Source: Lachnospiraceae bacterium AC2029 (GTDB lineage: Bacteria > Bacillota > Clostridia > Lachnospirales > Lachnospiraceae). Taken from it: 64,000 bases of DNA. Positions 1,308 through 46,069 of this stretch are shown here, in pieces (the stretch's first letter is position 1; every line of letters starts with the position of its first letter). Both the position numbers and the translations under genes were made by a program. Below the pieces are notes generated by a model. The model made no database searches. It was given only the letters and a program-made list of their open reading frames with translations, and was not told where the DNA came from. The stretch lies in assembly GCA_000703065.1 (NCBI GenBank), contig JNLK01000001.1:2564001-2628000 (forward strand). Reading direction: 5' to 3'.

Positions 1308-2669
1308 ATGAATGATATCGTACTCAGCAATAAGACCTATAAACTTGAACAGGATCCCTATATCTATCAGTTACAGGACGCTCCGGAACCCGAGCTGTTC
1401 AGGGAAATGTTCCCCTATACGGAAACGCCGAAGATCGCATTCAATTACCGCCGCGTGCCGGAAAATATGCCCGAAGATATCTTCATTACCGATACCACCT
1501 TCCGGGACGGACAGCAGTCCAGAACTCCTTATACAACAGAGCAGATGGTGCATATCTACAAGCTGCTGCACGAGCTGGGCGGACCGAAGGGGATGATCCG
1601 TCAGACCGAATTCTTTGTGTATTCCGAGAAGGACCGGAGGGCACTTGAAAAATGTATGGAGCTTGGCTACGAATTCCCGGAGATCACCACCTGGATCCGT
1701 GCAAGCAAGAAGGATTTCGAACTGGTACGTTCCATCGGGATCAGGGAAACCGGAATACTGGTGAGCTGCTCGGATTATCACATTTTCCACAAGATGGGTC
1801 TTACCAGAAGGGAAGCGCTGGATAAATACCTTGGCATAGTGAAGGAGTGTATTGAAGCTGGCCTTCGCCCCAGATGTCATTTCGAGGATATCACCAGAGC
1901 CGATTTCTACGGCTTCGTGGTTCCTTTTGCAAATGAACTCATGAAGCTTTCAAGGGAAAGCGGTATCCCCATCAAGATCAGAGCTTGTGACACCATGGGC
2001 TATGGAGTTCCCTATCCGGGAGCCGCGCTGCCGCGAAGCGTATCCGGAATCATTTACGGACTCCAGCATTACTCGGATGTTCCTTCGGAAATGATCGAGT
2101 GGCACGGACATAATGATTTCTATAAGGGCGTTGTGAATGCCACCACCGCCTGGATGTACGGTGCGAGTGCCGTCAACTGTTCACTGCTGGGTATCGGTGA
2201 AAGGACCGGAAATGTTCCGCTGGAAGCCATGGTATTCGAATACGCTTCCTTAAGAGGTCATCTGAACGGCATGAATACGAAGAAGATCACGGAGATCGCT
2301 GAATATCTGCAGAAAGAGACCGGTTACGATATTCCGCCCATGACGCCCTTCGTAGGGGAGAATTTCAACCTGACCAGAGCCGGGATCCATGCCGACGGCA
2401 TGATGAAGAATCCAGAGATCTATAATATCTTCGATACGGAAACGATCCTGAACCGTCCTCCGAAGGTATCCGTGAATAACGCATCCGGTCTTGCCGGAGT
2501 GGCTTACTGGGTCAATGAATATCGAAGAAAGCTGGGACTGGAAGAGCTTTCCAAGACAGATGAGCTGATCAGAAAGATCCACGAATGGGTGAGCAGTGAG
2601 TATGAGGCAGGAAGGATCACGATGATCAGCGACAGAGAACTGGTGGAAAAGTATAACGAGCTTGGCTGA
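1308..2669 (+). CDS. Re-citrate synthase-like / isopropylmalate synthase-family aldolase
   Basis: The 453-residue protein is a member of the HMGL-like (DRE-TIM) family, which condenses acetyl-CoA with a 2-oxo acid on a divalent metal. The DRE-TIM signature is DTTFRDGQQS at residues 62-71, and the metal-binding HGHND lies near 266-270. It lacks the LeuA-type C-terminal regulatory domain. The N-terminal EMFPYTE segment, the DTTFRDGQQSR variant and the length agree with my memory of clostridial Re-citrate synthases, which make citrate from oxaloacetate in anaerobes lacking the Si enzyme. The start at 1308 has AAGGAG 8 nt upstream. No aconitase or isocitrate dehydrogenase gene follows. A 2-isopropylmalate or homocitrate synthase role is the alternative. 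Confidence 0.65.
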   Translation: MNDIVLSNKTYKLEQDPYIYQLQDAPEPELFREMFPYTETPKIAFNYRRVPENMPEDIFITDTTFRDGQQSRTPYTTEQMVHIYKLLHELGGPKGMIRQTEFFVYSEKDRRALEKCMELGYEFPEITTWIRASKKDFELVRSIGIRETGILVSCSDYHIFHKMGLTRREALDKYLGIVKECIEAGLRPRCHFEDITRADFYGFVVPFANELMKLSRESGIPIKIRACDTMGYGVPYPGAALPRSVSGIIYGLQHYSDVPSEMIEWHGHNDFYKGVVNATTAWMYGASAVNCSLLGIGERTGNVPLEAMVFEYASLRGHLNGMNTKKITEIAEYLQKETGYDIPPMTPFVGENFNLTRAGIHADGMMKNPEIYNIFDTETILNRPPKVSVNNASGLAGVAYWVNEYRRKLGLEELSKTDELIRKIHEWVSSEYEAGRITMISDRELVEKYNELG

Positions 2670-2680
2670 TCTCCTGATCA

Positions 2681-2759
2681 TGACAGAGGGACAGGTATGA
2701 CAGAGGGACAGGTACAGTGTCGCATGAAAATGTGACACTGTACCTGTCCCTCTGTCATA
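2681..2759. repeat. Long inverted repeat, REP-like, copy 2, with a 17-bp direct duplication
   Basis: Arms 2696-2725 and 2730-2759 pair over 30 bp with one G/T mismatch around the same GAAA loop as copy 1. The outer 17 bp of the left arm (TGACAGAGGGACAGGTA) is duplicated in tandem at 2681-2697. It directly follows the stop of the Re-citrate synthase-like gene and may end its transcript. Confidence 0.8.
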
Positions 2760-2791
2760 TCTCTGCCGGAACGAAATGTTTCGGTGCATTC

Positions 2792-2819
2792 TTGATTGTT
2801 CTCCGAAATCCTTTATAAT
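2792..2819 (+). promoter_or_regulatory. Probable sigma-A promoter of the ABC transporter gene
   Basis: TTGATT at 2792-2797 and TATAAT at 2814-2819 are separated by 16 bp. The start codon used is about 87 nt downstream. No operator was recognised. Confidence 0.5.
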
Positions 2820-2905
2820 TATAAGGAGAAGCCCGTACAGCGAAGAGATTTTCGCGGGTGATGACGGATCATAGTTTGGAGGGGACAGATTACAGAGGGG
2901 TAACT

Positions 2906-4462
2906 ATGATGAGACGGAGAATGATCGTGGCTCTTGTGATGTTTATGCTGCTGGCATTGACAGCCCTTACGCTGGTTTCCTGCGGTCAGAAGGAGGAGAT
3001 CAGGCAGTACACTTCACTTGAGGAGTTCAAAGACAAGCGAATAGGTGTCTGCACCGGTACGATACAGGGAGCTGCGGCGGAGAAGGAGTTTCCTGATGCC
3101 GAGATTTATTATTACGATTCCCATACCGATATGCTGGCTTCGCTCCGGCAGGGCAAAATAGACGCATTTGCGGACTCGGATATTATTATCCGCTATACAA
3201 TGATCGAAAACGGTGATCTGACATATCTGGATGAGCACCTCACCGAGCCGGTCAGGATTGGAGCTATTTTCAGAAAGGATGAGAAGGGGGAGCGGCTGCG
3301 CGATCAGTTCAATGTATTTCTTCAAAAATCCAGAGAAGACGGAACCATTGAAGCCATTGACAAAATCTGGTATGGAACAGACAACAGCCTGAAGAAAGTG
3401 AAGGAACCGAAGTCGCTTTCCGCGGAGAACGGCGTCCTCAGACTGGCAACGGATTCCGGCAATCCTCCGGTTTCGTACAGAGGAGAAAATCAGGTCATCG
3501 GACTGGATATAGATATCGTAACGAGATTTTGCGAAGAGTACGGCTACGGTCTTGAGATCGTCGACATGAGCTTTCCCGTCATCGTGAATTCGGTGGAAAC
3601 CGGGAAATGCGATTTCGGAGCGGGTGGGATAGGTATTACCAGGGAACGTGCCGAGAGCGTCAATTTCTCCGATCCCATGTATGAGGGCAACTCCGTGATT
3701 GCCTATTTACAGGAGGACAGCGGCGGCAAAGGCGGTTTCTTCGAATCTCTGAAGGAGAGCTTTGAAAAGACCTTTATCCGTGAAAACAGATGGCAGCTTT
3801 TTCTGGAGGGCATCGGGACGACTCTTCTTATCACCGTTCTTTCGATCCTGTTCGGTACGCTGCTGGGCTTTGTCGTATTTATGCTCTGCCGCAAAGGCGC
3901 TCCTGTGGCAAATGCGGTTACCCGGTTCTGCATATGGCTGATCGATGGCATGCCGATCGTCGTGCTGCTGATGATCCTGTATTATATCATATTCAGCAAG
4001 TCCCAGATATCAGGCACTGCGGTATCCGTGATCGCTTTCACACTTGTATTCGGTTCGGCGGTATTCAGCATTTTGAAGCTGGGTGTCACCACCGTGGGCA
4101 CGGGTCAGATGGAAGCGGCCTATTCCCTTGGATATACGGACAGAAAGGCCTTCTTCAGGATCATTCTTCCGCAGGCGCTGCCCCATGCCATGCCGTCTTA
4201 CAAGGGTCAGATCAAGTCCCTGATCAAGGCCACCGCCGTTGTCGGCTATGTGGCGGTACAGGATCTGACGAAAATGGGAGACATCATCCGCAGTCGAACC
4301 TATGAGGCGTTCTTCCCGCTGATAGCCGTTGCGGTATTCTACTTTATTCTTGCCGCCATTCTGATCTGGATCGTAAACAGGATAGAAATACACACTGTCC
4401 CGGGACGCAGAGCCGGTAAGGGTGACCGGCAGTCGGGTGATCTGAATGTGCCGGAGGGTTAA
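2906..4462 (+). CDS. Amino-acid ABC transporter: lipoprotein binding domains fused to permease
   Basis: The 518-residue protein is a polar amino acid uptake component with binding and membrane parts in one chain. A lipoprotein signal (LTLVSC, Cys26) is followed by two solute-binding family 3 modules, the first complete to about residue 155, the second (LRLATDSGNPPVSY, DIDIVTRF) apparently shortened at about 280. A HisM/GlnP-type permease domain (residues 300-500) carries the EAA loop EAAYSLGYTDRKAFFRIILP. The start at 2906 has GAGGGG 5 nt upstream. No ATPase gene lies next to it, so the ATPase must be encoded elsewhere, or was lost when the MATE scrap arrived downstream. Substrate is not determinable. 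Confidence 0.85.
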   Translation: MMRRRMIVALVMFMLLALTALTLVSCGQKEEIRQYTSLEEFKDKRIGVCTGTIQGAAAEKEFPDAEIYYYDSHTDMLASLRQGKIDAFADSDIIIRYTMIENGDLTYLDEHLTEPVRIGAIFRKDEKGERLRDQFNVFLQKSREDGTIEAIDKIWYGTDNSLKKVKEPKSLSAENGVLRLATDSGNPPVSYRGENQVIGLDIDIVTRFCEEYGYGLEIVDMSFPVIVNSVETGKCDFGAGGIGITRERAESVNFSDPMYEGNSVIAYLQEDSGGKGGFFESLKESFEKTFIRENRWQLFLEGIGTTLLITVLSILFGTLLGFVVFMLCRKGAPVANAVTRFCIWLIDGMPIVVLLMILYYIIFSKSQISGTAVSVIAFTLVFGSAVFSILKLGVTTVGTGQMEAAYSLGYTDRKAFFRIILPQALPHAMPSYKGQIKSLIKATAVVGYVAVQDLTKMGDIIRSRTYEAFFPLIAVAVFYFILAAILIWIVNRIEIHTVPGRRAGKGDRQSGDLNVPEG

Positions 4463-4844: not shown

Positions 4845-6723
4845 ATTATGGACATGCATTGCCATGGTTGTGACACTGGTCCTGCTACTGACCGGAGTGA
4901 TTTTTACCGTGCGCTTTTATGTGAGTATGGATATCTATGAGAAGTCGCCTACGCTTCTGGAAGGCAGCTATTCCGTGGACGGAGGAGAATGGAAGGAGAT
5001 CCGGAGAGACGAAGCCATCGATGAGCGTTTTCATTCCCTGGAGCTGAGGGGGAGATTTCCGAATAAACTGCTCATCATATTCGAAGAGATCAATCTGTCA
5101 ACGAAGGATGTCTGGTTTGAACTGAAGACCGCAGACGGGGAAGAACTCTGCACCTATACCTATGAGGAAATGAAGCTTTCCTATGAGCATATGAGGGAGG
5201 GACGCCCTTATGCGTTAGATCTTCCCGAAACACCGGGTTATAAGGTTACTACGCTCAGTACGCAGTCTTTAACTGCTTCCGGAGTAACGGGTGAGACGGA
5301 GCTGGTCCTTACCGTGACCTATCCCTATTCCGGAAAAGGTCCCGGTTTTGCGGACTGTTTTCAGGTAACCACCGGCATTCCATCCGGTATGTACCTTCGT
5401 TTCTTCTACGAAGCCCTTCCGCTGATCCTGCTTTTTGTTCTGGTCTGCTTCTTCGGACTTTTCTTCTTCCCCATCGCGGGACGCGTCCTGGGAAAGACGG
5501 ACTATACATATCTTTCTTTTGGCGCTCTGTGCTTCTTCTGGGGCTTCTACATGATCGTGCAGAGCATGAGCGGATACCTGAACCTGTGGATCAATGATCC
5601 TACCATGTGTATGCTTCTCTCGCATGTTACGGAATATGCCTTCGTTGCATCCCTGATCTTCTATACAAAGACCAGGATGAAGGAAGATGGATTCCGTGCC
5701 TCTGCAAATGTTATAGGAAGCGCCTATCTGATCCTGGCGTTCATCCTGATGATCCTTCAGCTTAGCGGAGGGGCAGATCTTACAGCCACAGCATTCCTTA
5801 TGAATATCGTGACGGGGATCGTGCTTCTGATCCTTGTGGGACTCCTTATCCTGGAGGTGAAGAAAAGCCGTGAGATCCTTTATTTCGTTCTGTCGTGGAT
5901 CCCTTTGGTGCTTTCTCTGGGCGCGGACATCCTGGATCGGATCATCCATCTTCCGGGATCCTATTTCTTTCGGTACGGTATGGCCGTCACCATGGTGGTG
6001 CAGATCATCGGACTGATCTACGATCTCCGTCAGCAGTATCTGGAAAGACTGAAATATGAGAGAATGCAGAAGGAACTCTATGAGGCAGAGGTTGCGGTCA
6101 TGGTGAGCCAGATACAGCCTCATTTTATGTACAATGCCCTGACCTCCATCGCCATGATGTGTGTCAATGATCCGAAGAAGGCCCAGGAGGCAACGATAAC
6201 CTTCGCCAAGTATCTCAGGGGAAATATGGATTCTCTGAAGCAGAAGGAGCCGGTGCCCTTCAGTCAGGAGCTGGAGCATCTGAAGAAGTATCTCTATATC
6301 GAAAAGCTGCGTTTCGGCAAGAGGCTGAATGTGGAATATGACATACAGACGGAGGATTTCAAACTGCCGCAACTCAGTGTACAGCCGCTGGTGGAAAATG
6401 CGGTGAAACACGGAGTGGGGATGAAGAAGAAGGGCGGTACCGTTACGATAGCCACCCGGGAAAGCGACGATTTCTACGAGGTGATCATTTCCGACGACGG
6501 AGTGGGCTTTGATCCCACGGCGATCCCTACTGAGAACGCTGTACAGGATGGGAAGAACGACCTGCAGAAGGAGAAGCGTTCTCACGTAGGCATGGAGAAT
6601 ACGAAACGCCGGATCCGTGATATGTGCGGCGGAGAGATCGTGACGGAGAGTAAGATAGATGAAGGAACCACCGTGCGGATCATTCTGCCGAAGGCAGGAC
6701 AGTCTAAAACGGAGGCGGAATAA
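4816..6723 (+). CDS. LytS/YehU-type sensor histidine kinase
   Basis: The 635-residue kinase has an N-terminal membrane helix, an extracytoplasmic region of about 160 residues, then a multi-helix membrane domain resembling 7TM sensor modules (residues 190-410). A His_kinase (PF06580-type) dimerisation segment contains SQIQPHFMYNALTS with the phospho-acceptor His near 436. A HATPase domain has the N box VENAVKHG, DDGVGFD and a G-rich lid. The start is set at TTG 4816 because GGAGG lies 5 nt upstream; frame upstream of it overlaps a MATE relic. It forms a pair with the response regulator that follows after 39 bp. The signal is unknown. Confidence 0.85.
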   Translation: MTVIRILKSKLWTCIAMVVTLVLLLTGVIFTVRFYVSMDIYEKSPTLLEGSYSVDGGEWKEIRRDEAIDERFHSLELRGRFPNKLLIIFEEINLSTKDVWFELKTADGEELCTYTYEEMKLSYEHMREGRPYALDLPETPGYKVTTLSTQSLTASGVTGETELVLTVTYPYSGKGPGFADCFQVTTGIPSGMYLRFFYEALPLILLFVLVCFFGLFFFPIAGRVLGKTDYTYLSFGALCFFWGFYMIVQSMSGYLNLWINDPTMCMLLSHVTEYAFVASLIFYTKTRMKEDGFRASANVIGSAYLILAFILMILQLSGGADLTATAFLMNIVTGIVLLILVGLLILEVKKSREILYFVLSWIPLVLSLGADILDRIIHLPGSYFFRYGMAVTMVVQIIGLIYDLRQQYLERLKYERMQKELYEAEVAVMVSQIQPHFMYNALTSIAMMCVNDPKKAQEATITFAKYLRGNMDSLKQKEPVPFSQELEHLKKYLYIEKLRFGKRLNVEYDIQTEDFKLPQLSVQPLVENAVKHGVGMKKKGGTVTIATRESDDFYEVIISDDGVGFDPTAIPTENAVQDGKNDLQKEKRSHVGMENTKRRIRDMCGGEIVTESKIDEGTTVRIILPKAGQSKTEAE

Positions 6724-42710: not shown

Positions 42711-43636
42711 TTAGTTCTCGTCAGCGATAGCTGCCTGAGCTGCTGCAAGACGTGCTACCGGTACACGGAACGGTGAGCAGGATACATAGTCAAGACCGAT
42801 CTTGTGGCAGAACTCTACGGATGAAGGATCTCCACCGTGCTCGCCGCAGATACCTACGTGAAGCTTCGGATTAACCGGCTTGCCGAGCTTGATAGCCATC
42901 TCCATAAGCTTGCCGACACCTGTCTGGTCCAGCTTAGCGAACGGGTCATTCTCGAAGATCTTGGTGTCATAGTATGCATCCAGGAACTTGCCTGCATCAT
43001 CACGGGAGAAACCAAAGGTCATCTGAGTAAGGTCATTGGTACCGAAGCAGAAGAAGTTTGCCTCTGCAGCGATCTCGTCAGCGGTAAGAGCTACTCTCGG
43101 GATCTCGATCATCGTACCAACTTCGTACTCAAGCGCTACGCCTGCTGCTGCGATCTCTGCATCTGCAGTCTCAACAACAACCTTCTTTACGAACTTAAGC
43201 TCCTTAACTTCGAAGGTAAGCGGGATCATGATCTCCGGCTTTACATTCCAATCCGGATGAGCTGCCTTTACTTCCAGAGCTGCACGGATAACAGCCTTGG
43301 TCTGCATCTTAGCGATCTCAGGATACCGGTGATATCTTCCGGAGAGGTCTCAAGACGAACCAGAACGACCTTCTCGCCACGAGCTGCCCATGCAACTGCA
43401 TCATCAGCTGTGAATACTGCCTTACCGCAAGCAGCACCCGGAGAAGCACCAAGACCCTTGCCAAGAGGTGTAGCAGCCTTAAGAGCCTTTGTATCGAACT
43501 GCGGGTGAAGCAGGGTATCCAGGTTTCTCGGATCGATCATGGCTACTGCTTCCTTCTCGGTCTTGTGACCTTCCTTAACCAGGTCGCAAGCAATCTTCAG
43601 AGCAGCGGGAGCAGTTCTCTTACCGTTACGGCACTG
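42711..43636 (-). pseudogene. ppdK: Pyruvate phosphate dikinase with internal deletion and frameshift
   Basis: Two parts of PpdK are readable. The upstream part (43330-43636) begins QCRNGKRTAPAALKIACDL and reaches LGASPGAACGKAVF and VRLETSPEDI, the region just before the phosphohistidine swivel site. At about 43320 it changes frame directly to PEIAKMQTKAVIRAAL, which belongs near the start of the PEP-binding barrel, and continues to the normal C-terminus (FFCFGTNDLTQMTFGFSRDD, CGEHGGDPSSVEF). Some 250 residues, including the catalytic His loop, are missing, and the N-terminal ATP-grasp third is absent beyond 43636, where tRNA-like sequence starts. Codon use is that of a highly expressed gene. 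Probably a duplicate; a working copy is expected elsewhere. Confidence 0.85.
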
Positions 43637-43639
43637 ATG

Positions 43640-43682
43640 CAGTTCCGGAGACGGAGTAAGGGTTCGACTCCCTTTATGCGCA
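43640..43682 (+). tRNA. 3' half of a tRNA gene fused to the ppdK relic (partial)
   Basis: A T-arm AAGGG-TTCGACT-CCCTT (43658-43674) is followed by a 7-nt acceptor strand TATGCGC and A. No matching GCGCATA is found upstream, where ppdK sequence begins instead. TTCC...GGA ahead of the T-arm could be a class II variable stem. This marks the recombination joint between the ppdK relic and the tRNA array. Confidence 0.5.
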
Positions 43683-43688
43683 CGACAT

Positions 43689-43879
43689 GCTGGACTGGTG
43701 AAATGGTTTCAGCCTTTGAGAACGGTCAATGAAACCGTTCTCAAACCTCGCTTCGCGAGGCAACTCCTTCGGAGTTGGGCATATACGGACACAAAATTCC
43801 TGATGGAATTTTGCGTCCTACACAGGAGCTTCAAATACTCCGGTAGAAATGCATGAGGGTTCGACTCCCTCGTCCAGTA
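43689..43879 (+). tRNA. tRNA gene split by a hairpin-array insert (anticodon CAA or TCA)
   Basis: The ends form an acceptor stem GCTGGAC/GTCCAGT with one G-T pair, the T-arm is GAGGG-TTCGACT-CCCTC, and a D-arm TGAA/TTCA follows the 5' strand. Between the D-arm and the anticodon arm lie about 110 extra bases made of hairpins: GAGAACGG/CCGTTCTC, CCTCGC/GCGAGG, AACTCC/GGAGTT and CAAAATTCC/GGAATTTTG. The anticodon arm GGAGC-TTCAAAT-ACTCC reads CAA (Leu) with a C/A mismatch; shifted by one it would read TCA. A normal tRNA would be about 80 nt. No CCA is encoded. Confidence 0.55.
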
Positions 43880-43883
43880 TTAT

Positions 43884-43957
43884 GCCCTCGTAGTCCAATC
43901 GGAAGAGGCAACCGGTTTAAGCCCGGTCACGTGTGGGTCCGAATCCCGCCGAGGGTA
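43884..43957 (+). tRNA. Class I tRNA with anticodon TAA
   Basis: A 74-nt gene folds with acceptor GCCCTCG/CGAGGGT, anticodon arm ACCGG-TTTAAGC-CCGGT and T-arm GTGGG-TCCGAAT-CCCGC. The anticodon is TAA, which would read UUA (Leu), but the 5-nt variable loop is that of a class I tRNA whereas bacterial tRNA-Leu is class II. The T-loop has TCC instead of TTC, and the D-stem is weak. No CCA is encoded. It could be a non-canonical or degenerate array tRNA. Confidence 0.65.
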
Positions 43958-43988
43958 CGATCTAAAATGAGAGAGGAGAAATTTCGAA

Positions 43989-44213
43989 ATGGTTACGATC
44001 AATGTAACAGCGACCGGAGCAAACATCAAAGCGATGATGAAAGCCCGTCAGATGACCACCGCAGACCTTCAAAAAGCCTGTGGCTTTGGCACTCCGCAGG
44101 CAATCTTTAAATGGTTCCGCGGCGACACCATGCCGACGATCGACAACATGGTCATCGTGGCAGATCTGTTCGGCTGCACGGTCAACGATATCATTCGGGT
44201 AAACCGGGGATAA
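43989..44213 (+). CDS. 74-residue XRE-type helix-turn-helix protein inside the tRNA array
   Basis: The product contains an HTH (MTTADLQKACGFGTPQAIFK) and a typical XRE tail (DTMPTIDNMVIVADLFGCTVNDIIR). It is a bare DNA-binding domain without an effector part. AGAGGAG lies 9 nt before the ATG. The gene begins 31 bp after one tRNA and ends 15 bp before the next, so it is part of the array and may control it; this is inference. Its codon use matches the neighbouring array rather than the AT-rich genes that follow. Confidence 0.8.
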   Translation: MVTINVTATGANIKAMMKARQMTTADLQKACGFGTPQAIFKWFRGDTMPTIDNMVIVADLFGCTVNDIIRVNRG

Positions 44214-44228
44214 GGTTTACCCCAACAT

Positions 44229-44299
44229 GGCGGTTTCGTCTAATGGAAGGATCTCCGGTTCTCAGCCGGAAGATACGGGTTCAAGTCCCGTAACCGTTA
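44229..44299 (+). tRNA. tRNA-Glu (anticodon CTC)
   Basis: The 71-nt gene folds with acceptor GGCGGTT/AACCGTT (two G-T pairs at the end), a D-arm GTC/GAT, anticodon arm TCCGG-TTCTCAG-CCGGA and T-arm ACGGG-TTCAAGT-CCCGT. CTC reads GAG. The 3' CCA is not encoded. The loose acceptor end is unlike a housekeeping tRNA-Glu. Confidence 0.75.
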
Positions 44300-44304
44300 C
44301 TTAT

Positions 44305-44378
44305 GGTCCCATCGAATAAATGGCCAGTTCACCGGCCTTTCAAGCCGGAAATGCCGGGTTCGAGTCCCGCTGGGATCA
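44305..44378 (+). tRNA. tRNA-Glu (anticodon TTC)
   Basis: The 74-nt gene folds with acceptor GGTCCCA/TGGGATC, D-arm GAA/TTC, anticodon arm CCGGC-CTTTCAA-GCCGG and T-arm CCGGG-TTCGAGT-CCCGC (one mismatch at the outer pair). No CCA is encoded. It lies 5 bp after the CTC gene. Confidence 0.75.
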
Positions 44379-44380
44379 CT

Positions 44381-44582
44381 GTGACTGTCGTACAACAGCC
44401 ACGGGATTGCCCGAACGTAGTGAGGGAGGGTCCCGTGGTCTCGACCGAAGGGAGAGATACCCATGCGTAGCATGGACGCGGATGCGTAGCATCCGGGCAT
44501 GATTTCGCCTGCGAAATCATGGTACGGGTCAGTACCTCAGATTGTGAATCTGATGATTTGGGTTCGAATCCCAGCAGCCACA
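44381..44582 (+). tRNA. tRNA-His (anticodon GTG) split in the D-loop by a 132-bp hairpin array
   Basis: The outer parts form acceptor GTGACTG/CAGCCAC (one mismatch), anticodon arm TCAGA-TTGTGAA-TCTGA and T-arm TTGGG-TTCGAAT-CCCAG. The D-stem GTAC at 44390-44393 is followed by an insert to 44525 that ends in a second GTAC; then GGGTCA-GTAC completes the D-arm. Removing 44394-44525 restores a full tRNA. The insert folds into CCACGGGA/TCCCGTGG, CCATGC/GCATGG, GGATGC/GCATCC and CATGATTTCG/CGAAATCATG; the last hairpin is shared with the 29525 repeat. Confidence 0.7.
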
Positions 44583-44594
44583 TTTCCATATTAT

Positions 44595-44734
44595 GCCGTG
44601 TGTCCGGGTGGTGAGGGAGCGGTCCTCCCAACCGTTGGCCCGTCAGGGCGGCAAGGCCCCGGTGGGGCCTGTTCTGCCGCGAATCGACCAAGCCGGCAGG
44701 CGCGACCTTGCATGTTCGAATCGTGTACACGGCG
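44595..44734 (+). tRNA. tRNA-Gly-like (anticodon TCC) with hairpin insert at the variable loop
   Basis: The ends pair perfectly as acceptor GCCGTGT/ACACGGC; the T-arm is GCATG-TTCGAAT-CGTGT, the D-arm CCG/CGG, and the anticodon arm GCGGT-CCTCCCA-ACCGT, giving TCC with C instead of the near-universal U at position 33. About 70 extra bases between anticodon arm and T-arm hold AGGCCCC/GGGGCCT nested in GCGGCA/TGCCGC. No CCA is encoded. Confidence 0.55.
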
Positions 44735-44739
44735 CTTTT

Positions 44740-44906
44740 GGGTAGGTAATCCCGTAATTGGTAGCAATGAGCCAAAGCGTCTGCGTCGTGCTTGCACGAA
44801 ATGCAGACGCCTTGGCGAATGCAAGCCTCGAGCACGTAGTGCGAGAGGGTGCGGTCCGTAAAATCGCCGGCTTCGGCCCCTGGAGGTTCAAGTCCTCTCC
44901 TGCCCA
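44740..44906 (+). tRNA. tRNA-Tyr-like (anticodon GTA) with a hairpin insert before the anticodon arm
   Basis: Acceptor GGGTAGG/CCTGCCC, anticodon arm GCGGT-CCGTAAA-ATCGC (GTA, again C at position 33), class II variable stem GCCG-GCTT-CGGC and T-arm GGAGG-TTCAAGT-CCTCT agree with bacterial tRNA-Tyr. About 80 extra bases before the anticodon arm fold as CCAAAGCGTCTGC/GCAGACGCCTTGG around CGTGC/GCACG, and CTCGAGCAC/GTGCGAG. No CCA is encoded. Confidence 0.6.
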
Positions 44907-44912
44907 CTTTAT

Positions 44913-45004
44913 GCCTGTATAAGCCTCAATTGGTAAGGCGGGAGATTGCTAATCTCCGAGTAGCCAGGTTCCCTGGTGTTCTGGTTCGAATCCAGATGCA
45001 GGAG
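44913..45004 (+). tRNA. tRNA-Ser (anticodon GCT)
   Basis: The uninterrupted 92-nt class II gene has D-arm GCCT/AGGC, anticodon arm GGAGA-TTGCTAA-TCTCC, long variable stem CCAGG-TTC-CCTGG, T-arm TCTGG-TTCGAAT-CCAGA and discriminator G as in tRNA-Ser. The acceptor GCCTGTA/TGCAGGA has a G/A mismatch at the first pair. No CCA is encoded. It is the last member of the array. Confidence 0.8.
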
Positions 45005-45127
45005 CTCATTTTCCCGAATACCGGTGGTGCCTCCCAGATCGATAGATCCCGTTTCCAGTCGTCCACCTGACAGATGATCAGCCGGAGATCATCCTGGATG
45101 AAAAATAAAAAAAGGAGTAAAAAAATT

Positions 45128-45336: not shown

Positions 45337-45591
45337 ATGTGCAGAATCGCATTTGATATTCCGAATGAAATATTGCTTAGTACCCGACAGAGTGAAGCGG
45401 ATGCTGTTAAGTTTGTGAGAAAGTATGCCGCCTTGAATTATTATGTACAAGGTGGAGTCTCTTTGGGGTATGCAGCTCAGATCGCTGATATGGATAAGGA
45501 ATCCTTCATAAAGTTTCTGGGTGAGAATAAAGTATCGATATTCCAATATGATAGCAAAGAAGAGTTTTTGGAGGAGCTGAAGAATGGATAA
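45337..45591 (+). CDS. UPF0175-family antitoxin
   Basis: The 84-residue protein begins with a ribbon-helix-type region (RIAFDIPNEILLSTRQSEAD), followed by the UPF0175 hallmark YYVQGGVSLGYAAQIADMDKESFIKFLGE, where a helix-turn-helix-like segment binds operator DNA. GGAGGTGA stands before the ATG. It overlaps the PIN gene by 8 bp, so the pair is translationally coupled, as is standard for UPF0175-PIN (DUF3368) modules. Confidence 0.85.
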   Translation: MCRIAFDIPNEILLSTRQSEADAVKFVRKYAALNYYVQGGVSLGYAAQIADMDKESFIKFLGENKVSIFQYDSKEEFLEELKNG

Positions 45592-46069
45592 GGTGTTGTC
45601 GAATACAACTCCACTGATTGCTCTGGCCGATATAGATCAGCTCGATCTTCTGCATAAGCTATATAATATAGTAGTGATTCCTCAAGCTGTTATGGATGAA
45701 ATCATGAGCGAACCTGCCAGAAGTAGAGTATCCGGATGTGATTGGATCGTGGTTGAAGACATTGGAGATCCGTCACAGAGAAATGATTTTACGACGCGGT
45801 TACATGCAGGTGAAGTTGACACTATTATATTGGCTATGGAACAGGCTGCTGATCTGGTAATCATGGATGATGCTGAAGCAAAGAAAGCGGCTAAGGATAA
45901 AGGACTTAAAGTGATCGGAACTATGGGTGTTCTGGTGAGAGCTAAACAGGAGGGATTCTTAAATAAGATAGAACCGGTTATGAACAGGCTGATTCAAGAT
46001 GGATTGTATATCAGTGATTCTGTTAGAAATTTGGTATTGGAGATGGCCGGAGAACTGAATAATCAATAA
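45584..46069 (+). CDS. PIN-domain (DUF3368) toxin
   Basis: The 161-residue PIN-like nuclease has the N-terminal SNTTPLIALADIDQLDLL, Glu in AVMDEIM, Asp/Glu in HAGEVDTIILA and the acid pair VIMDDAEAKKAAKDKGL that together make the metal-binding site. VapC-like PIN toxins cut tRNA or rRNA; whether this one does is unknown, but it stands right after a tRNA array. The upstream UPF0175 protein is its antitoxin. Confidence 0.85.
   Translation: MDKVLSNTTPLIALADIDQLDLLHKLYNIVVIPQAVMDEIMSEPARSRVSGCDWIVVEDIGDPSQRNDFTTRLHAGEVDTIILAMEQAADLVIMDDAEAKKAAKDKGLKVIGTMGVLVRAKQEGFLNKIEPVMNRLIQDGLYISDSVRNLVLEMAGELNNQ

Follow-up and report, generated by a model that had tools for sequence, protein, structure and literature searches.

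A 64,000-nt stretch of the genome of Lachnospiraceae bacterium AC2029 (contig JNLK01000001.1, positions 2,564,001 to 2,628,000; hereafter the window) contains an array of tRNA genes, several of them interrupted by hairpin-forming inserts, at 43640–45005 on the forward strand. Eight tRNA genes and one 3′ fragment are packed into 1.37 kb in the order Leu 3′ fragment, Leu-CAA, Leu-TAA, a small Cro/CI-type helix-turn-helix (HTH) gene, Glu-CTC, Glu-TTC, His, a Ser-type gene, Tyr, and Ser-GCT. ARAGORN reads four of these as continuous tRNAs: Leu-TAA (43884–43958, + strand; Rfam 43.5 bits), Glu-CTC (44229–44300, +), Glu-TTC (44305–44379, +), and Ser-GCT (44913–45005, +; Rfam just 26.7 bits). At gathering score, the Rfam tRNA model recognizes Leu-TAA, both Glu genes, and part of His. 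The other four, Leu-CAA, His, the Ser-type gene, and Tyr, carry hairpin inserts of ∼58–130 nt. The HTH gene (43989–44213, +; 74 codons; HTH_3, 2.9e-8) is a marker of the array family; it is 95% identical in a second array of the same genome and 58% identical in the Ruminococcus albus plasmid pRUMAL01. An initial annotation, made from the letters alone, had described an interrupted tRNA array at this position in which two Glu genes, a TAA tRNA, and a Ser tRNA are continuous and four further genes contain extra sequence at differing points, and had proposed comparison with relatives; ARAGORN, Rfam, and alignment to an uninterrupted relative all bear out this description.

Two arrays of Eubacterium sp. 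RGIG6897, L062 and L063, served as references for calling the inserts; L062 is from sheep rumen and belongs to the same genus as the window genome. The genes of L062, all uninterrupted, run Leu-AAG, Leu-CAG, Leu-CAA, Leu-TAA, HTH, Glu-CTC, Glu-TTC, His, Ser-TGA, Tyr, and Ser-GCT, with Tyr placed by alignment as ARAGORN misses this uninterrupted gene. A homologous uninterrupted array of the same gene order rules out chance. Relative to L062 and L063, tRNA-Leu(CAA) (43689–43879, +) contains ∼110 extra nt in the D loop (∼43708–43818), and the 60 nt of its 3′ part are 96.7% identical to the relative. tRNA-His(GTG) (44381–44582, +) contains ∼130 extra nt in the D arm (∼44396–44525), with an empty site in L062. 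tRNA-Tyr(GTA) (44740–44907, +) contains ∼82 extra nt on the 3′ side of the D arm (∼44766–44847, approximate boundaries), called by alignment and by homology to an insert in a Met gene of the second array. The fourth interrupted gene (44595–44735, +), which the initial annotation had called Gly, aligns instead to Ser-TGA; this type II tRNA gene contains ∼58 extra nt in the variable arm (∼44650–44706), and its anticodon loop reads CCTCCCA in place of the CTTGAAA of its Ser-TGA homologue. In predicted folds, 90 of 130 insert bases pair within the insert in His, 76 of 111 in Leu-CAA, 54 of 82 in Tyr, and 28 of 57 in the Ser-type gene. Array tRNA-Tyr genes also have C for T at anticodon-loop position 33 (CCGTAAA), as seen in the window (44851–44867), in L062 (4734–4750), and in a further locus, L031 (8486–8571).

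As long as the inserts are present, ARAGORN fails to read any of the four interrupted window genes as the expected tRNA; its intron option returns one selenocysteine call on Leu-CAA and nothing for His, the Ser-type gene, or Tyr. Deletions were tried in silico in windows near the called boundaries and compared with shifted control deletions, each scored by whether ARAGORN gave the expected anticodon. Near-boundary deletion restored Leu-CAA in 76/77 windows (shifted control 4/112) and His in 76/77 (control 15/84), in agreement with the earlier claim that removal of the His insert restores a complete tRNA. The Ser-type gene was restored in 58/77 windows, read as TCC (control 17/154), and Tyr in 0/77, with 6/154 among the shifted windows. 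Over the 12 interrupted genes tested at several loci, 11 gave the expected anticodon in at least one near-boundary window, the exception being window Tyr, and shifted controls restored less often in 10 of the 12, the exceptions being window Tyr and a Val gene of locus L127 (see below). The initial annotation had reported no intron signature, and in the window Rfam gave no match at gathering scores to a group I or II intron or to any family besides tRNA, although no separate maturase search was made; with none found in the L127 stretch either, a group I/II intron reading was dropped.

Compared with L062, the window array is truncated at its 5′ end. It lacks the first Leu gene entirely and the second by half, so that it begins with a Leu 3′ fragment (43642–43684, +; 89.6% identical to positions 37–84 of the L063 Leu-AAG gene over 43636–43683) whose 5′ half is missing, and the leader and promoter region of the relatives are missing with it. 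The L062 array does carry a leader, a short open reading frame (ORF) encoding MNAFRNLYLHSEYLLLSSESESGEGIFVMH, ahead of four Leu, two Glu, His, Ser, (Tyr), and Ser. Related loci were fetched through the HTH gene, taking the best 80 of 120 from named genomes together with 29 loci of the same genus (some on the same contigs); with plasmid pRUMAL01, the second array of the AC2029 genome, and the window itself, the scan set comprised 112 sequences. In these, a detector blind to composition looked for three features in succession: a short ATG ORF preceded by a ribosome-binding site, a terminator-like hairpin, and a tRNA; the terminator, a predicted hairpin plus T run, is thus itself a search criterion. 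It returned 92 rows (90 of them with a tRNA group), spread over 71 of the sequences, and no row for the window copy. Among the 80 named-genome loci, 69 have an ARAGORN tRNA, and a leader ahead of a tRNA group was detected in 62. Intact members consist of a block of tRNA genes, with the small HTH gene and in some cases a gene for the RNA ligase RtcB, behind a leader ORF of ∼30–60 codons and a terminator-like hairpin, and they occur in rumen and gut Clostridia, on the R. albus plasmid, and on predicted viral contigs. As a control, the housekeeping tRNA loci of the window genome (42 tRNAs, 39 distinct) gave no leader candidates.

The amino acids named by each leader follow the tRNAs behind it. 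One R. albus leader, SYDDYQCFFSFSFDWQDE, precedes Asp, Gln, Cys, Phe, Gln, and Trp genes, another, FSYSYSYSS, precedes Tyr and four Ser genes, and at two Solobacterium loci a leader containing YFQHEQFIEAIDFIIQDSDFYHD precedes Gln, His, Phe, Glu, Ile, and Asp. Plasmid pRUMAL01 of R. albus 7 has three predicted terminators in all. For 40 leaders of less than 80% identity to one another, a set in which three false rows (L125, L111, and L139 15423) were left, 165 of the 173 anticodons of the tRNA groups are matched by a cognate codon in the leader ahead of them. Coverage per leader averaged 0.959, compared with 0.728 when leaders were permuted (sd 0.042, maximum 0.863), and the fraction of cognate residues was 0.319, compared with 0.196 (sd 0.014; as high in 0/5000 permutations). 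Thirteen of 14 amino acids tested were commoner in the leader when their own tRNA was in the group (p<0.05, uncorrected), Asn being the exception. Leader composition tracks the tRNA set across lineages.

A held-out case was provided by predicted viral contigs from IMG/VR. Each of two contigs, L256 (from a 55-kb record) and L257 (from a 253-kb record), has 26 detected tRNAs in less than 4 kb, and L257 alone was scored. The three leaders of L257 cover 25/25 anticodons of their own groups, compared with 29/50 of the other groups, with Met left out and an ARAGORN Phe-AAA call (4895) counted as Leu-TAA; together the three tRNA groups represent all 20 amino acids, Arg in two of them. The terminators of the L257, L103/L107, and L251–L254 leaders were read by eye. 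The L257 array also encloses a GOLLD RNA (2666–3102, 174.5 bits).

In four loci of the window's genus, a leader and terminator immediately precede RtcB; the leaders, three of them distinct, name many amino acids. Three of these loci are without an ARAGORN tRNA in 11–13 kb, one of the three containing partial tRNA-like pieces past its HTH gene, and the fourth has three tRNAs 2.5 kb upstream. RtcB is also present in the L063 array, whose block homologous to Leu-to-Tyr is uninterrupted, and is therefore not specific to arrays with inserts. A short, unverified human faecal phage record contains an RtcB-like frame (by eye), an HTH gene, and Phe, Glu, and Tyr tRNAs in a row.

Ribosome-mediated attenuators are established in the trp, his, leu, and ilv operons, where stalling at leader codons lets the transcript pass a terminator. 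The codon match and the terminator-like hairpins observed here point to the same principle, and we consider it likely that these arrays are emergency tRNA and tRNA-repair operons under ribosome-mediated attenuation that sense tRNA shortage, with the window array a 5′-truncated copy in which hairpin elements have lodged. By analogy we infer the following cycle. When the named charged tRNAs are plentiful, the leader would be translated, the terminator would form, and the array would be off. Under scarcity, such as would follow cleavage by an anticodon nuclease, the ribosome would stall and an antiterminator would form; once the terminator is passed, replacement tRNAs and RtcB would be made. The presence of copies on predicted viral contigs would then make a response to anticodon-nuclease defences plausible, provided that the leaders act in this way. 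The HTH protein may be an autoregulator; a palindrome of the TATACyaccGGTATA type in promoter regions, seen by eye in L251 (∼8577–8557, − strand) and ahead of the L103 and L259 leaders, is a candidate operator for it.

Several observations weigh against this interpretation. Seven of the 69 tRNA-bearing named loci gave no leader row with a tRNA group, and sampling through the HTH gene leaves arrays without that gene outside the set. The leaders form a few homologous families, and the permutation values are therefore not independent tests. In L257, the long leader 1 also covers 8/9 anticodons of group 2. Searches for an antiterminator against mononucleotide shuffles gave a weak signal over 37 leaders (mean z −0.69; 11/37 below −1 and 11/37 above 0), from a set in which three of the 90 leader rows (L125 on the minus strand, L111, and L139 15423) had been dropped as false. 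Six of seven HTH-only loci keep a leader and terminator where ARAGORN finds no tRNA, the seventh having just 249 bases upstream, which means that tRNA genes are not the sole target and that the leader would also control the HTH gene. Finally, the window copy has no leader, and the model does not extend to its own regulation. The HTH-only loci and the weak antiterminator signal would also be expected if the leader ORFs were coincidental or served only the HTH gene, with a composition unrelated to the tRNAs, but the match at 165 of 173 anticodons, the held-out 25/25, and the tracking of tRNA sets across lineages make that explanation highly improbable.

The second array of the AC2029 genome, here called the sister array (around 2092233–2095801 of contig C1), is 85% identical to the window over 43932–44673 and has three leaders and an RtcB gene (PF01139, 2.3e-57; four NCBIfam RtcB models also match, each short of its curated cut-off). 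It contains the His insert at the same place as in the window, and the start of the Ser insert is likewise common to both, so these inserts seem to have been in place before the two arrays diverged. The D-arm insert in a Met gene of the sister array shares homology with the window Tyr insert (74% over 93 nt).

The His insert itself represents a single unit of a ∼140-nt hairpin repeat that begins and ends with GTAC. At three other places that were read, the unit is tandem or single in DNA that looks intergenic by eye, and BLAST of one such unit against the genome gave 42 rows including fragments. Two of these rows are the His inserts, and the remaining 40 overlap no tRNA match. GTAC is present on both sides of the His insert, as originally noted, but the empty tRNA-His D stem already reads GTAC...GTAC, so that the flanking copies may predate the insertion rather than mark a target-site duplication. 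The initial annotation had suggested a transposing or copying element that targets structured RNA genes and had proposed a genome search with the inserts. This is partly supported: related insert sequence occurs in two different tRNA genes of the genome, window Tyr and sister-array Met, and in L127 (see below) one element was found in six tRNA genes and nowhere else. RNA-gene-specific targeting by the window His insert is not supported, since its dispersed family lies outside tRNAs elsewhere and such targeting is not needed to explain it.

The dispersed repeat bears on whether the interrupted tRNAs are simply pseudogenes, that is, dispensable backup tRNAs invaded by selfish MITE- or REP-like hairpin repeats and persisting by drift. 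Along with the many copies of the repeat, the truncated and leaderless state of the window array, the wrecked anticodon loop of the Ser-type gene, and the intact Leu-CAA, His, and Tyr genes found elsewhere in the genome all fit such decay, and we regard it as, on balance, slightly the more probable fate of these genes. Some observations run counter to it. Between the window and the sister array, the His exons differ by 5 substitutions in 73 positions and the insert by 24 in 130 plus 4 gap columns, and differences in the T stem keep its pairing. Because the exons diverge less than the insert and T-stem pairing is kept, the sister-array His was likely under some constraint as a tRNA after the insertion, gene conversion being an alternative, although the uninterrupted Glu genes differ between the two arrays at 5/72 and 9/74 positions, about as much as His. 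The near-identity of the 3′ part of Leu-CAA to its relative and the restriction of the L127 element to tRNA genes also count against simple decay. The window copy is most simply explained by hairpin repeats, including a unit of the dispersed GTAC-flanked family, lodged in a truncated, leaderless, partly decayed backup array; the copy, now without its leader, is probably a relic and probably either silent or in decay.

Inserts in other genomes provide a different perspective. L127, an array in an uncultured Lachnospiraceae genome (G456), contains six copies, all in the same orientation, of a 45–48 nt element with two GAA-loop hairpins. They lie in the anticodon loop of Asp and Val, the 3′ side of the anticodon arm of Asn, the D loop of Gln, and the T arm of Met and Leu-TAA. 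A pattern search of the 4.2 Mb genome found the element six times, always in tRNA genes of this one array, and a covariance model scored the six copies at 61.6–80.5 bits and others at 16.2 or below (150 of 1472 first-look candidates scored). In 396 other genomes of the family, searched with stricter filters and with up to 15 candidates scored per genome, the model gave a match at E≤0.001 in eight, the best at 31.9 bits, and two of these matches (L218 and L219) are near tRNA genes. In L219 (1–130, − strand), a tRNA-Arg-like T arm and acceptor lie behind two hairpins that match the model weakly. L127 may hold one more interrupted tRNA at 5940–6084, where a tRNA-like gene that ends in GTGTCGGTTCAAGTCCGGTCGCCTGTA encloses a long, G+C-rich stretch. 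In the Ruminococcus flavefaciens group, the tRNA-Tyr genes of five loci have a 37-nt two-hairpin insert in the anticodon loop, on two different Tyr scaffolds, and the cultured strain R. flavefaciens FD-1 (L138) has the interrupted Tyr; a pattern that included flanking tRNA bases matched only these five known genomes of ten Ruminococcus genomes, the other five giving nothing at ≤3 mismatches, which is not a frequency. The viral contigs contained no exact pattern match to the L127-type or R. flavefaciens-type element.

These cases, together with the linked RtcB, keep alive a reading of the inserts as short protein-spliced tRNA introns, akin to the processing-dependent split tRNAs offered by the initial annotation, in which a nuclease would cut at the hairpins and RtcB would join the halves. 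An unspliced insert at the L127 anticodon- and T-arm sites should abolish function, yet Rfam scores the genes well with the insert inside (Asp 55.4, Val 48.4, and Asn 40.8 bits), near-boundary deletion gives the expected anticodon in at least one window for all six L127 genes, and RtcB is encoded in the sister array. Against splicing, no RtcB was seen in the examined part of L127, RtcB accompanies an uninterrupted block in L063, and L127 Val was restored more often by shifted (64/154) than by near-boundary (6/77) deletions and Asp in only 7/77, and the junctions are ambiguous. The R. flavefaciens-type insert replaces CTG, and its simple removal does not give the loop of the paralogue. No known splicing signal is present at the inserts, although a bulge-helix-bulge motif or splicing endonuclease was not searched for, and Rfam returned no intron family at E≤1 in L127 4500–8300. 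Two L127 inserts, in Asp and Val, lie near position 37/38; the other four L127 sites are elsewhere, and the window inserts are in D and variable arms. We consider introns of this kind doubtful. The still broader proposition, that bacteria and phages keep emergency tRNA sets gated by poly-specific leaders reading the shortage of those tRNAs and that some of the genes carry new hairpin introns of 37–134 nt, some of them tRNA-confined, excised and sealed by RtcB, seems unlikely.

The inserts might alternatively remain in the mature tRNA as tolerated loop expansions, or be cut out without religation, as are the intervening sequences of 23S rRNA. The D- and variable-arm positions of the window inserts and the many insert bases predicted to pair among themselves would suit this, but the anticodon- and T-arm insertions of L127 could hardly be tolerated unjoined, and the explanation is quite unlikely.

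Neither Rfam nor ARAGORN found a Ser-TGA or Ser-GGA gene outside the arrays genome-wide, though both should be needed. A pattern search for Ser-TGA gave five places, none tRNA-like, and an anticodon-arm scan for Ser-TGA and Ser-GGA covered 429 kb, overlaps included. The housekeeping genes may be interrupted or divergent, or the first-look filter may have missed them, as it did the interrupted window Leu-CAA and Tyr at E≤10. ARAGORN detects uninterrupted genes only, so that the absence of interruptions among the 42 housekeeping tRNAs is true by construction.

Immediately upstream of the array lies a truncated gene fragment for a PEP-utilising enzyme (42711–43641, −; PF02896, 1.4e-43 at 42711–43304), read by eye as pyruvate phosphate dikinase, of which the piece 43268–43537 has no Pfam match. 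Conservation of its DNA stops at ∼43641, the array junction, and dozens of the matches listed among genomes of the family are confined to window positions 43600–43641. Directly downstream are UPF0175 antitoxin-like and DUF3368/PIN-like toxin-like genes (45337–46069, +; PF03683, 2.2e-20; PF11848, 2.6e-13; PADLOC PDC-S70, 2.6e-46), a pair that is a neighbor of the array by position.

Short hairpin repeats in structural RNA genes or reading frames are represented by the SDR5/STRR elements in cyanobacterial rnpB and by the Rickettsia palindromic elements. The elements described here are alike in being short hairpin repeats and differ in lying in tRNA arms, with one type found only in tRNA genes. 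If the inserts are not removed, the arrays document, in nature, the invasion of tRNA genes by hairpin elements; if they are removed, bacteria would have short tRNA introns other than group I. In its available text, a review of tRNA introns names only group I introns for bacterial tRNAs (Yoshihisa, 2014; PMC4090602), and archaeal tRNA exons are ligated by RtcB according to a published abstract. Like the protein-spliced introns of archaea and eukaryotes (PMC4090602), the inserts are short and free of group I/II features, some lying in the anticodon loop and others elsewhere; a splicing endonuclease and bulge-helix-bulge motif belong to those systems.

Although the interruptions first drew attention to the window, the wider discovery is the family of probably leader-controlled arrays rather than the interruptions alone. 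Morgado and Vicente (2018; PMC5966550) described dense tRNA array units from phages as well as from chromosomes and plasmids, and ∼87% of the G2 arrays in that work have genes for an XRE regulator and an HNH protein. The window array shares the tRNA density, judged by count, and has a Cro/CI-type HTH gene. The terms leader, attenuat(ion), terminator, intron, and interrupted are absent from the main text of that paper; leaders, RtcB, and interrupted genes occur here. Among the papers listed, judged by title and abstract and with subscription papers and preprints outside the search, we found no description of leader or attenuator control of tRNA genes or arrays, and the matches listed for hairpin elements in tRNAs, tRNA introns, or arrays included no matching case. 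In Proteobacteria, the rtcBA RNA-repair operon is controlled by RtcR and makes RtcB upon tRNA damage. The arrays would resemble it in making RtcB on tRNA damage, and they differ in placing RtcB behind a leader peptide and terminator, in some loci together with spare tRNAs. If the leaders act as we propose, tRNA genes can be controlled by shortage of the very tRNAs that they encode, a direct feedback. Like the attenuators of the trp, his, leu, and ilv operons, the arrays combine a short leader ORF, rich in regulatory codons, with a predicted intrinsic terminator behind it. Downstream, however, lie tRNAs, an HTH gene, and an RNA ligase rather than biosynthetic enzymes, and a single leader names many amino acids, with codons that match the anticodons of the controlled tRNAs.

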